A DNA stretch of 44,716 nucleotides. Source: Pseudorhodobacter antarcticus (GTDB taxonomy: Bacteria; Pseudomonadota; Alphaproteobacteria; Rhodobacterales; Rhodobacteraceae). Position 1 is the stretch's first letter, and the number at the start of each line of letters is the position of its first letter. Location of the stretch: positions 1 through 44,716 of the forward strand of contig CAMAYO010000013.1 in assembly GCA_945862465.1 (NCBI GenBank), in the 5' to 3' direction. The notes below the pieces were generated by a model. The model was not told where the DNA came from, did no database searches, and worked only from the letters and a program-made list of their open reading frames with translations. Position numbers and translations under genes: made by a program. Of this stretch, positions 13,295-16,942 are shown one piece after another.

Positions 13295-15298
13295 ATGGCC
13301 CTCAAAGACAATGACGACGTGAAGCCCGAAGGCGACGAACAGGATGTCTCGCTTGACCTAAGCCAAGCCGCCGTCAAACGCATGATCGCCGATGCCAAAG
13401 AGCGCGGCTATATCACCTACGATCAGCTCAATTCCGTGATGCCCCCCGAACAGGTGTCGTCCGAGCAGATCGAAGACGTGATGTCGATGCTGTCGGAAAT
13501 GGGCATCAACATTATTGAGAACGAAGACGGCGAAGAGGCCGAGGTTGAGGGTGGCGAACTGGTCGAAACCTCTGCCACCTCACGCGATGTGGCCGTGGTG
13601 ACATCCACGACCGAGGCGCTCGACCGCACCGATGACCCCGTGCGGATGTATCTGCGCGAAATGGGCTCGGTTGAACTTTTGTCGCGCGAAGGCGAAATCG
13701 CCATCGCCAAGCGGATTGAAGCTGGCCGCAACACGATGATCCAGGGCCTGTGCGAAAGCCCCCTGACCTTTCAGGCCATCATCATCTGGCGCGACGAACT
13801 TCTGACCGAAGACATTTTGCTGCGCGATGTGATCGACCTTGAAGCCACCTTTGGCCGCAGCCTTGAGGGCGAAGAAGGCATCGTTGGCGCCGAAATTGAC
13901 GGGCTGGATATTGACGGCGTCTCGGCCGCCCCGCGCCGTGCTGCGGGCGACGAACCCGAACTGGACGCTGACGGCAACCCCCTGATGGGCGCCGTGGAAG
14001 ACGACGAAGACGACGAAGACGGCGTGGCCATGTCTTTGGCTGCGATGGAGGCGGCGCTCAAACCGCAGGTCTTGGAAACGTTGGACAAGATCGCCGATGA
14101 CTACGGCAAGCTGGAAGAAATGCAAAACCTGCGCATGGATGCCGCCTTGAACGTAAAGACCCAGTTTTCCGCCGTAGACGAGGCGGCTTACCAACAGCTG
14201 CGCTCGGAAATCGTTAAGCTGGTCAACGAGCTGCACCTGCACAACAACCGCATCGAAGCGCTGATTGACCAGCTTTACGGCATCAACCGCAAGATCATGG
14301 TGATCAATTCCGGCATGGTGAAGCTGGCCGACGCCGCCCGCATCAACCGCCGCGAGTTCATCGACGAATACCAAGGCTACGAGCTTGATCCGACATGGGT
14401 TGACCGCATGGCCGCCAAGGCTGGCCGAGGCTGGCAGGTTCTGATCGAGAAAAGCCGCGCCGCCATCGACGATCTGCGCGGCGAGATGGCCGAAGTGGGC
14501 AAATATGTCGGCGTCGACATTTCCGAATTCCGCCGCATCGTGAACCAAGTCCAAAAGGGCGAGAAAGAGGCGCGGCAGGCCAAGAAGGAAATGGTCGAAG
14601 CCAACCTGCGTCTGGTGATCTCGATTGCCAAGAAATACACCAACCGCGGCCTGCAATTCTTGGACCTAATCCAAGAGGGCAATATCGGCCTGATGAAGGC
14701 CGTTGATAAGTTTGAATATCGCCGTGGGTATAAGTTTTCCACCTATGCCACATGGTGGATCCGTCAGGCCATCACACGTTCTATCGCCGATCAGGCCCGC
14801 ACCATCCGCATTCCGGTGCATATGATCGAGACGATCAACAAACTGGTGCGCACCGGTCGGCAAATGCTGCACGAAATAGGCCGCGAACCCACGCCCGAAG
14901 AATTGGCCGCCAAGTTGCAGATGCCCTTGGAAAAGGTCCGCAAGGTGATGAAAATCGCCAAGGAACCTATTTCGTTGGAAACCCCCATCGGCGATGAAGA
15001 AGACAGCCAGCTTGGCGATTTCATCGAAGACAAAAACGCCATCCTGCCCTTGGATTCGGCCATTCAGGAAAACCTGAAAGAAACCACGACCCGCGTGCTG
15101 GCCAGCCTGACCCCCCGCGAAGAGCGCGTGCTGCGGATGCGCTTTGGCATCGGCATGAACACCGACCACACTCTGGAAGAAGTGGGCCAACAGTTCTCGG
15201 TGACGCGTGAGCGTATCCGTCAGATCGAAGCCAAGGCGCTGCGGAAGCTGAAGCACCCCAGCAGAAGCCGGAAGTTGCGCAGTTTCTTGGATCAATAA
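13295..15298 (+). CDS. rpoD: RNA polymerase primary sigma factor RpoD
   Basis: Housekeeping sigma-70 factor, 667 residues. Region 1.1 is at the N-terminus ([21 protein letters not shown]). Region 1.2 follows ([31 protein letters not shown]), then an acidic non-conserved insert ([11 protein letters not shown], about 230-240). Region 2 has [27 protein letters not shown] and the -10-reading [20 protein letters not shown]. Region 4 has [13 protein letters not shown] and the helix-turn-helix [23 protein letters not shown] site precedes the ATG. Its upstream region has four GATTCG motifs and its downstream region a REP-like cluster. Confidence 0.97.
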
Positions 15299-15513: not shown

Positions 15514-15541
15514 TTGACTTCGAACCTAAAGTTGATATTTT
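15514..15541 (+). promoter_or_regulatory. Possible sigma-70 promoter
   Basis: TTGACT (15514-15519), a 16-base spacer and TATTTT (15536-15541) lie about 40 bases before the TTG start at 15581 in an AT-rich stretch after the REP cluster. Confidence 0.4.
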
Positions 15542-15580
15542 GAAGCTAAGTGGTGTCACTCTTTGGCATTGGAGGATTTT

Positions 15581-16057
15581 TTGAACGCTATTGATTATCT
15601 CGATCAAGTAGTTTCACCTTCTTTGGAAGAGGCGCAAAACGAACCCCTTTCCATGCATCGTGTTCTCACGCTTGTTGCGGTCGTTGACGCATTTGCCGCA
15701 AGAGTTTTCCAGCATCGCAGCGACAATGGCCCTGCCGTAGATTTTCCAAAAGACATGAATAACCCTGATGATACGGCTTACCGAGAGCTACTTTCAAGAA
15801 GCAGCGAAAGCTTTAGGCTGTTCCGTGACTTGGCCAAGTCACAAAAGCACGCCAGGCTAACCCATGGTTCCCCGAAGGTCACCGGTGCCGACCAGACCAA
15901 TGTAAAAAGTCTCGGCTATGGCCAGGGCGGATATGGCGAGGGGCCTTACGGGGGTGGGGAACAAATTGTGGTCACGTCAAATGACGGGACCATCAGGAAC
16001 GTCATTTCGCTTTGTGAAGTGGCTTTGGATTTGTTGAAGTCTGAACTGCAGAAGTAA
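15581..16057 (+). CDS. Hypothetical protein with a Gly/Tyr-rich segment
   Basis: I do not recognise this 158-residue protein. A strong GGAGG ribosome site (15571-15575) lies five bases before a TTG at 15581, which I take as the start; an earlier TTG at 15563 lacks such a site. The N-terminal half is helical-looking (SMHRVLTLVAVVDAFAARVF), the middle has charged helices (AYRELLSRSSESFRLFRDLAKSQKHARL), then a flexible GYGQGGYGEGPYGGG segment and a C-terminal helix (ISLCEVALDLLKSELQK). No signal peptide or membrane segment. G+C is lower than in rpoD (a sampled line gave about 53%), suggesting acquired DNA. It is followed by a toxin-antitoxin pair. Confidence 0.65.
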   Translation: MNAIDYLDQVVSPSLEEAQNEPLSMHRVLTLVAVVDAFAARVFQHRSDNGPAVDFPKDMNNPDDTAYRELLSRSSESFRLFRDLAKSQKHARLTHGSPKVTGADQTNVKSLGYGQGGYGEGPYGGGEQIVVTSNDGTIRNVISLCEVALDLLKSELQK

Positions 16058-16087: not shown

Positions 16088-16116
16088 TTGACCACCTGTA
16101 CGCAATCACGTACAAT
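16088..16116 (+). promoter_or_regulatory. yefM promoter with overlapping TGTAC operator
   Basis: TTGACC (16088-16093), a 17-base spacer and TACAAT (16111-16116) form a near-consensus sigma-70 promoter. Inside it, TGTAC (16097-16101) and GTACA (16110-16114) form an inverted repeat whose right arm overlaps the -10 box. TGTACA-core palindromes are the known YefM operator type in E. coli, so autorepression by YefM/YoeB is expected. Initiation six or seven bases past the -10 box would fall at the ATG (16123), giving a leaderless mRNA; no ribosome site is present. Confidence 0.7.
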
Positions 16117-16122
16117 CCCCCC

Positions 16123-16395
16123 ATGAAAACCCTCTCCTCCACCGAACTGCGCGCCAATCTTTCCGCTGTCATGGACCGCGTGAACGACGACCACGAGCCG
16201 GTCATCGTCCACCGCGCCAAGGGCAAGCCTGTGGTTATGGTCAGTCTGGAAGACTGGGCCAGCATGGATGAGACGACCTATCTTCTGTCTTCTCCGGCCA
16301 ATAGGGCCGAGCTTTTGGCTTCTATCGCTGACGCCGATGCTGGCCTTGGCATCGTCAAGACGATGGAAGAGCTAGAGGCGATGGCGCAAGAGTGA
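16123..16395 (+). CDS. yefM: Type II antitoxin, Phd/YefM family
   Basis: Labile antitoxin and autorepressor, 90 residues. The N-terminal DNA-binding Phd/YefM fold (MKTLSSTELRANLSAVMDRVNDDHEPVIVHR, about 1-31, then KPVVMVSLEDW) is followed by a less ordered acidic C-terminus that would wrap the toxin. The stop overlaps the GTG start of yoeB (16392-16395), the normal antitoxin-first coupled order. The promoter and operator sit immediately upstream with no room for a leader, so translation probably starts on a leaderless transcript. Confidence 0.93.
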   Translation: MKTLSSTELRANLSAVMDRVNDDHEPVIVHRAKGKPVVMVSLEDWASMDETTYLLSSPANRAELLASIADADAGLGIVKTMEELEAMAQE

Positions 16396-16649
16396 ACGTG
16401 CTTTTCCGACCGCGCGCGTGGAACCATCTGCTTTACTGGCAAGATGCTGATAAGGCCGTTGTTAAGAAAATCAATGGCTTGATCAAGGAATGTCAACGCC
16501 ATCCCTTTGACGGCACGGGCAAGCCGGAACCGCTCAAGGGCGATCTTGCGGGGTATTGGTCACGCCGGATCGACCGTGAGCATCGCTTGGTCTATCGTGT
16601 TGTGGGAGACGACCTCGAAATCTTATCCTGCCGCTTTCACTACAGTTGA
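16392..16649 (+). CDS. yoeB: Type II toxin YoeB (ribosome-dependent mRNA interferase)
   Basis: RelE-superfamily endoribonuclease that cuts mRNA at the ribosomal A site. The 85 residues match the family length, and the residues known as catalytic in E. coli YoeB fall at the same numbers here: E46, R65, H83 and Y84 (KPEPLKG, REHRLVYRV, CRFHYS). The toxin looks intact. The start is GTG overlapping the yefM stop, which would link toxin output to antitoxin translation. The pair lies in a small accessory stretch behind rpoD. Confidence 0.93.
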   Translation: MNVLFRPRAWNHLLYWQDADKAVVKKINGLIKECQRHPFDGTGKPEPLKGDLAGYWSRRIDREHRLVYRVVGDDLEILSCRFHYS

Positions 16650-16672
16650 TCTATAACCTGCGAGTGCCCCCC

Positions 16673-16942
16673 ATGTCCCTCCTCTCCCGCCTCTTCGGCA
16701 AATCCGCCCCCAAGGCCCCTGACCCCATCCTGCACAAAGACTGCCGCATCTTTGCCCAGCCTGTGGCCGCTTCGGGCGGCTACCGTGTCACGGCGCGCAT
16801 TGAAAAAGACCTCGCGGGCCAGACCAAGACGCATCTGTTGCAGCGCGCCGACACTTGCGCCTCGCTGCAAGAGGCCACCGACCTTTCCATCGCCAAATCC
16901 CGCCAAGCGATTGACCAGTTGGGCGACGCGCTTTTTGCCTAA
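16673..16942 (+). CDS. HlyU family protein
   Basis: An 89-residue protein similar to the HlyU family: a short basic N-terminus (MSLLSRLFGKS), a core with HKDCRIFAQPVAASGGYRVTARI, and the characteristic end (HLLQRADTCASLQEATDLSIAKSRQAIDQLGDALF). In this family, HKxxRIxAxP-GGxYRVxxRI followed by FxRADTxxxxxEA is typical. The name comes from a Vibrio haemolysin regulator, but most alphaproteobacterial members are uncharacterised and a regulatory role is not shown here. The ATG at 16673 was preferred to the upstream in-frame ATG at 16646 because it gives the usual MSLxSRLFG start. Confidence 0.75.
   Translation: MSLLSRLFGKSAPKAPDPILHKDCRIFAQPVAASGGYRVTARIEKDLAGQTKTHLLQRADTCASLQEATDLSIAKSRQAIDQLGDALFA

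Follow-up and report, generated by a model that had tools for sequence, protein, structure and literature searches.

Among the closest described relatives of the locus studied here are two toxin-antitoxin operons. The yefM-yoeB operon of Escherichia coli encodes homologous proteins and carries TGTAC(A/G) operator arms spaced 12 bp centre to centre, with the operator lying over the -10 box of the promoter (PMC7730913), and in the axe-txe operon of the Enterococcus plasmid pRUM one repeat occupies the spacer between the -35 and -10 boxes and the second lies partly over the -10 box (PMC7730913). Leaderless antitoxin messages are already known in Mycobacterium tuberculosis, where 32 of the 37 toxin-antitoxin pairs with a primary start are leaderless (PMC3898074). 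Here we analyse a yefM-yoeB operon in a stretch of 44,716 nucleotides from Pseudorhodobacter antarcticus, hereafter the window, which is contig 13 (CAMAYO010000013.1) of an assembly (GCA_945862465.1) of 2.9 Mb in 155 contigs that is 92% complete. Our comparison makes it highly probable that promoter, operator and start codon are merged at this locus, giving a leaderless yefM-yoeB mRNA from an autorepressed YefM-YoeB operon.

At the site, a -35 box TTGACC (16088-16093, + strand) is followed by a 17-nt spacer, a -10 box TACAAT (16111-16116, + strand), a 6-nt discriminator CCCCCC (16117-16122, + strand) and the ATG of yefM (16123-16125), so that promoter, operator and start codon are packed within 38 bases. 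The promoter scan recovers exactly the TTGACC-17-TACAAT pair that we read directly and that the preliminary description had placed six bases before the ATG; it matches the consensus at 10 of 12 positions, and three promoter-like sites lie in the scanned 1.8 kb against a shuffled mean of 0.6. The predicted transcription start is the A of the ATG (16123, + strand), since it lies a 7-nt step past the end of the -10 box and is the first purine after it, the discriminator being all pyrimidine.

The predicted YefM/YoeB operator is the perfect 6+6 palindrome TGTACG-CAATCA-CGTACA (16097-16114, unstranded). The left arm falls within the spacer, and the right arm and the -10 box have four bases in common, in agreement with the overlap claimed earlier. 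Over the promoter the paired arms are spaced 12 bp from centre to centre, the geometry of E. coli yefM-yoeB and of axe-txe. For GTACGN6CGTAC there is a single hit in the window and none in 100 shuffles, and TGTACGN6CGTACA, with at most one mismatch, is found at one place only in the assembly. A regulon defined by this operator therefore finds no support, there being no second site at that tolerance in the 92% complete assembly.

No Shine-Dalgarno (SD) sequence is detectable before the ATG (anti-SD pairing +0.5 kcal/mol), as the earlier reading had it, and no in-frame ATG, GTG or TTG was found upstream. A -10 box 6-7 nt before an AUG without SD is the arrangement expected of a leaderless mRNA. 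The first 36 nt of yefM have a folding energy of 0.0 kcal/mol, which means that the 5' coding end is unstructured; for Caulobacter, leaderless mRNAs have been reported to lack structure around the start (PMC4117421). Met17 was rejected as the start of yefM: it also lacks an SD and would drop the conserved residues L9 and L13 (both invariant) and R10 (nearly invariant). Met17 is itself invariant in the YefM alignment, and E. coli YefM also has a Met there, inside a longer protein.

The bare promoter-plus-ATG pattern is weak evidence and not decisive. The pattern TTGACN17-19-TANNNT-N5-7-ATG occurs at six places in the assembly against three for the reversed control, as would suit a chance match in which an ordinary palindrome resembles a promoter. 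Such a match is contradicted by the comparison described below, where the layout recurs in 53 unique loci at nearly fixed spacing, and we regard it as extremely improbable. In a gene-start sample of 444,716 bases with uncurated starts, a promoter-like pair stands 5-9 nt before the start in 1 of 587 in-frame ATG candidates, drawn from 345 open reading frames (ORFs) of at least 150 aa, a length limit that yefM itself falls below; 250 of the 345 ORFs have a candidate start with an SD. A separate leaderless candidate was seen on assembly contig 6 (L121, 39947-39983, minus strand), with TTGACA and, 6 nt ahead of an ATG, a TAACAT box; the ORF that opens there is about 249 aa long and presumably resembles a GntR-type regulator.

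The strong evidence for the predicted leaderless layout is comparative. YefM relatives were found in 8 of 16 genomes of the genus (this one included), 29 of 394 of the family, 47 of 385 of the class and 26 of 292 of the order; at most 30 loci were taken from each of the class search (47 matches) and the order search, and the best 80 of 108 relatives were kept from a contig scan with peptides from this YefM. A first set of 117 loci lost 14 duplicates, leaving 103, and then 5 with unclear starts, leaving 98 unique loci. An enlarged set of 151 lost 16 (11 duplicates, 4 of odd length, among them the decayed loci L007 and L008, and 1 without a start codon), leaving 135; one locus, L194, is without an N-terminal match.

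When the 98 loci are searched for GTAC-N8-GTAC with at most one mismatch, the distance from operator to start is two-valued: 9-12 nt in 50 loci (26 at 9 nt, 21 at 10, 1 at 11 and 2 at 12), and at least 14 nt, or no operator detected, in the other 48. The median anti-SD pairing is -1.3 kcal/mol in the close-operator loci versus -11.0 in the others, and pairing of -5 or stronger is present in 7/50 versus 45/48. Four of these seven have only GATC outside the SD core; the remaining three are L016 (GAGG), L064 (-5.3 kcal/mol without a four-base SD match) and L084 (AGGAG). We called a locus leaderless-type when the operator lies within 12 nt of the start and the anti-SD pairing is weaker than -5.5 kcal/mol, and SD-type when the core anti-SD pairing is -5 kcal/mol or stronger, which divides the 135 loci into 53 leaderless-type, 74 SD and 8 that are neither. 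L084 is the single locus with both an SD and a close operator (12 nt), the SD abutting the operator edge, and is a possible intermediate between the two layouts. At L030/L185 and L191, from two genera, tandem CGTATCAGCATCT-like repeats replace the GTAC operator 5' of yefM, again without an SD.

When the 135 YefM proteins were placed on a quick tree, built from 90 columns and leaving many forks unresolved, a single all-leaderless branch (support 92, not starred) gathered 46 of the 53 leaderless-type loci. In exactly these 46, without exception, rpoD, the gene of the primary sigma factor, ends 93-1474 bp upstream and on the same strand. By comparison, within flanks of about 1.5-2 kb (far shorter for certain SD and 'neither' loci, e.g. 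L148 and L031), rpoD precedes none of the eight that are neither and 1 of the 74 SD-type loci, namely L188, whose YefM copy is divergent and which lacks a full match to yoeB. The seven leaderless-type loci outside the branch are L020, L027, L083, L145, L147, L149 and L155; for six of them about 1.5 kb of flank contains no rpoD, and for L083 only 38 upstream bases are available. YefM identity tracks rpoD identity (Spearman 0.53, 0 of 999 permutations, 44 loci), which together with the linkage favours mostly vertical descent. A mobile element was considered and rejected: plasmid relatives (470 records) are all below 60% identity, and the locus looks chromosomal and fixed in place, with patchy loss.

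The rpoD-linked records are titled Pseudorhodobacter, Pseudotabrizicola, Tabrizicola, Rhodobacter, Xinfangfangia, Gemmobacter, Amaricoccus, Frigidibacter, Roseovarius and Robiginitomaculum, many of them metagenome assemblies, and leaderless-type loci from other family codes (f13, f16, f96) came via the class search. The predicted leaderless layout is an inherited trait of one YefM lineage, which sits 3' of rpoD in Rhodobacteraceae as well as in certain further Alphaproteobacteria; a few YefM loci that do not belong to this lineage show the layout too. Whether it had a single origin is undecided: the quick tree needs at least four changes, and one clade is not rejected (approximately unbiased test, p 0.348). 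One record (L042, CP059262.1) is titled Exiguobacterium profundum, a label that looks wrong; its rpoD is 97% and its YefM 83% identical to those of the window locus.

Within the leaderless-type group, the -35 box has at least four of six matches to TTGACA in 47/53 loci, the spacer is 17 nt in 46/53, the -10 box is TACATT in 26/53 and the start codon is ATG in 51/53. The 16-bp operator core has a mean pairwise identity of 0.81 (52 loci) versus 0.27 for the 20 bases at -60 to -41. The last six bases of the discriminator vary in sequence (mean identity 0.45), and the discriminator as a whole is poor in purines (75 of 329 bases in the set of 98 loci). Of the 46 rpoD-linked loci, 44, that of the window included, have a discriminator of 6-7 nt, and the operator stands 9 nt from the start in 23 of the 46 and 10 nt in 21. 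Repression would tie the operator to the promoter. The ATG is tied to the -10 box at 6-7 nt through varied sequence, a tie for which a leadered message gives no obvious reason, and this favours a leaderless mRNA.

The coding end points the same way. The first 36 coding nt have a median of -0.2 kcal/mol in leaderless-type loci versus -8.5 for internal segments (53/53 less structured), compared with -3.7 versus -7.0 in the SD group (58/74 less structured). Against the mean of a synonymous-codon null, 51/53 leaderless-type (mean z 1.50) and 51/74 SD loci (mean z 0.52) are less structured. The preliminary description had predicted a leaderless yefM mRNA directly autorepressed by YefM/YoeB, and that prediction gains from the discriminator spacing, the lack of a clear SD, the first purine falling on the A of the ATG, the unstructured 5' end and the operator geometry, a support that is comparative in kind. 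Because of this comparison across YefM loci we consider a leaderless yefM message with its start on the ATG probable, and autorepression by YefM-YoeB at the predicted operator likely.

Several observations weigh against these conclusions. The class limits were chosen by the analyst, and L016, the sole leaderless-type locus that pairs at -5 kcal/mol or stronger (-5.0, with GAGG three bases before the ATG), still counts as leaderless-type. The -35 box has only three of six matches in 6/53 loci and the -10 box three or fewer in 19/53. The start codon is GTG in two of the 53 (L027 and L074), and GTG initiates leaderless messages poorly in E. coli (PMC3898074, PMC3616915). The 46 linked loci share ancestry and are therefore not 46 independent observations.

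The exact base at which transcription begins is a further such point. A purine occupies position -1 in 5/53 loci and -3 in 2/53, and with a 7-nt discriminator, which is found in 21/50 loci (8-9 nt in 3/50), a start one base upstream is possible. At many promoters, transcription starts spread over one or two bases. Most transcripts could then begin 1-3 nt before the ATG and carry a very short leader, the near-terminal ATG still being used. However, the window discriminator is all C, with the A of the ATG as its first purine, and this A is the first purine 6-9 nt past the -10 box in 46/53 loci; we consider the very short leader unlikely.

The upstream region must also be weighed. A second + strand promoter-like site (15514-15541, 9 of 12 matches) lies before a 164-aa ORF between rpoD and yefM, and the sole + strand terminator-like site ahead of yefM is weak and inside that ORF (16001-16023); both strands together hold three terminator-like sites versus 1.4 in shuffles. 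A terminator-like hairpin lies within 300 nt of rpoD in only 11 of the 46 rpoD-yefM intervals. Together with the common strand of rpoD and yefM in all linked loci, this would allow the main message to be a longer, leadered one, originating at rpoD, at the upstream ORF or at the 15514-15541 site, with the promoter at 16088 playing a minor part. But the wide variation of the rpoD gap, the lack of conservation just upstream of a conserved promoter-operator block and the fact that a leadered mRNA would offer yefM no SD make this very unlikely.

A last reservation concerns the toxin. The stop of yefM and the toxin start overlap as NTGA in 51/53 leaderless-type versus 39/74 SD loci; in the window, the GTG start of yoeB shares four nucleotides (GTGA) with the yefM stop. 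Coupling as the sole route to the toxin is nevertheless doubtful, and independent initiation is possible, because SD-like pairing precedes the toxin start both here (moderate, -6.2 kcal/mol) and, at -5 or stronger, in 30 of the 51 overlapping leaderless-type loci.

From the sequence, its conservation and its spacing we infer the following start site, repression and translation route for a leaderless operon. The housekeeping RNA polymerase would use TTGACC-17-TACAAT and start on the A of the ATG, yielding a leaderless yefM-yoeB mRNA. The YefM-YoeB complex would bind TGTACG-N6-CGTACA across the spacer and the -10 box and thereby block the polymerase. YefM would be initiated at the 5' AUG without SD pairing, aided by the unstructured 5' coding end, and YoeB would come chiefly from translational coupling at the GTGA overlap, with its own weak SD perhaps contributing.

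The identity of the two proteins was assessed with profiles. YefM (90 aa, 16123-16395, + strand) matches PF02604 (E 1e-23; 83.3 bits, cut-off 29.8), which places it by sequence in the YefM/Phd family, and it also matches E. coli YefM (2a6q_A of 2a6q, E 2.6e-16) and M. tuberculosis RelJ (3oei, E 4.2e-11). It scores 79.1 bits with the E. coli-type YefM equivalog NF008499, below the cut-off of 121; by its profile scores, the protein is a YefM relative and not the enterobacterial equivalog. We take E46, R65, H83 and Y84 to be the catalytic residues of YoeB. The toxin of the window (85 aa, GTG start, 16392-16649, + strand) keeps all four in an ungapped alignment with E. coli YoeB (2a6q, E 2.7e-31), matches PF06769 (E 2.4e-37) and, with 112.9 bits against a cut-off of 51.8, belongs with the Txe/YoeB toxins of TIGR02116. 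YoeB thus looks intact, and by profile the operon is a YefM-YoeB type II toxin-antitoxin system.

Upstream, rpoD (13295-15298, + strand), a gene name given here by inference, encodes sigma-70 regions 1.1 to 4. The 164-aa ORF (15563-16057) has no Pfam or NCBIfam match at E 0.001 and is absent from the sister loci examined, except for a weak 35-residue match in L244. Directly 3' of yoeB lies an HlyU-family gene (16670-16942, PF10115), which is also 3' in many sister loci.

The genus contains intact, decayed and empty versions of the locus. A full-length pair follows rpoD in 6 of 16 genomes (G000, G006, G007, G008, G011 and G013), with the right operator arm and the -10 box weakened (GTCC) in G011 (L002). 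In G003 (L008/L253, about 610-1032) a deletion has removed yoeB, and the yefM start runs in frame into the HlyU-like gene, which matches along its length. In G004 (L007/L246) yefM is cut short by an early stop and the operator is eroded, and yoeB still matches over the full length. In G014, rpoD is followed directly by the HlyU-like gene with no yefM-yoeB between. No yefM was found within 1.5 kb 3' of rpoD in G001, G002, G005 and G015, nor in a shorter stretch after rpoD in G010; rpoD itself was not recovered in G009 or G012, genomes of 79 and 86% completeness. By this distribution, the rpoD-linked yefM-yoeB pair looks like an old chromosomal locus that was lost repeatedly; gain by exchange through the rpoD flanks is conceivable. 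The presence of intact, decayed and empty versions in one genus makes it testable what a chromosomal toxin-antitoxin pair costs its host and what benefit it brings.

Other antitoxins of the same family initiate differently. We examined ParD and RelB starts in 30 of 41 loci, leaving out 11 (7 ParD, and 4 RelB below the cut-off) with poor or late N-terminal matches, and an SD is present in 28 of the 30, which argues against leaderlessness as a general antitoxin habit in the family. Among the ParD starts, 21 of 23 show SD pairing at -5 or below, one is leaderless-like (L213) and one is weak (L222); all seven RelB loci have an SD when the best start, 12 nt upstream of the profile-expected one, is taken. 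The L213 ParD reads TTGACA-17-TACCTT-7-ATG without an SD, 21 of the 22 other ParD starts having one. One predicted leaderless lineage beside SD-type YefM, ParD and RelB in one family offers a natural comparison for the role of leaderlessness in toxin-antitoxin control.

The preliminary description had further held that leaderless antitoxins would be translated differently under stress. For yefM this is speculative and does not follow from the layout. Leaderless mRNAs of Caulobacter are translated as efficiently as leadered ones (PMC4117421), which argues against a stress-only use, and the specialised-ribosome model of E. coli MazF is disputed (PMC7167474). In M. tuberculosis, starvation and nitric oxide had a smaller effect on a leaderless reporter than on one with an SD (PMC8485053), and such mycobacterial data would support a milder form of the claim. 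M. tuberculosis RelE1 removes the anti-SD by cleavage (PMC12620021). In that light an antitoxin message that needs no SD is an appealing notion, but the finding is silent on this YoeB. Antitoxin synthesis may even have been selected for independence from SD-guided initiation, with the toxin largely coupled and leaderlessness as part of the control circuit, although we think this rather unlikely. If true, antitoxin output would persist when 30S initiation fails or when a toxin attacks initiating ribosomes, allowing the operon to reset, and leaderlessness would be a control element and not a by-product of a compact promoter.

Compared with the known systems, we regard the locus as a conserved variant of YefM-YoeB autoregulation whose leaderless arrangement is uncommon but not unheard of. 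Leaderless mRNAs number 375 in Caulobacter, 171 in S. meliloti and 119 in Zymomonas (PMC4117421, PMC3616915, PMC7566282), the Zymomonas count taking in leaders of up to 5 nt (PMC7566282). These alphaproteobacterial messages have the same form as the predicted yefM mRNA, and no antitoxin is named among them in the accessible text, supplements aside; our literature searches, subscription papers and supplements aside, turned up no leaderless alphaproteobacterial yefM and no rpoD-linked yefM-yoeB. The E. coli operon differs in that its long repeat lies on the -10 box and its short repeat around the start site (PMC7730913). The operator of our locus is placed like that of axe-txe rather than that of E. 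coli. The axe-txe operon, unlike ours, is plasmid-borne, and it is not described as leaderless in the accessible part of its report (PMC7730913). M. tuberculosis likewise has a YefM/YoeB pair, Rv3357-Rv3358 (PMC3968373), and leaderless antitoxins have been discussed, in the sources available, for mycobacteria, where leaderless genes are common generally. There most antitoxin operons are leaderless, whereas here the predicted leaderless layout belongs mainly to one YefM lineage.
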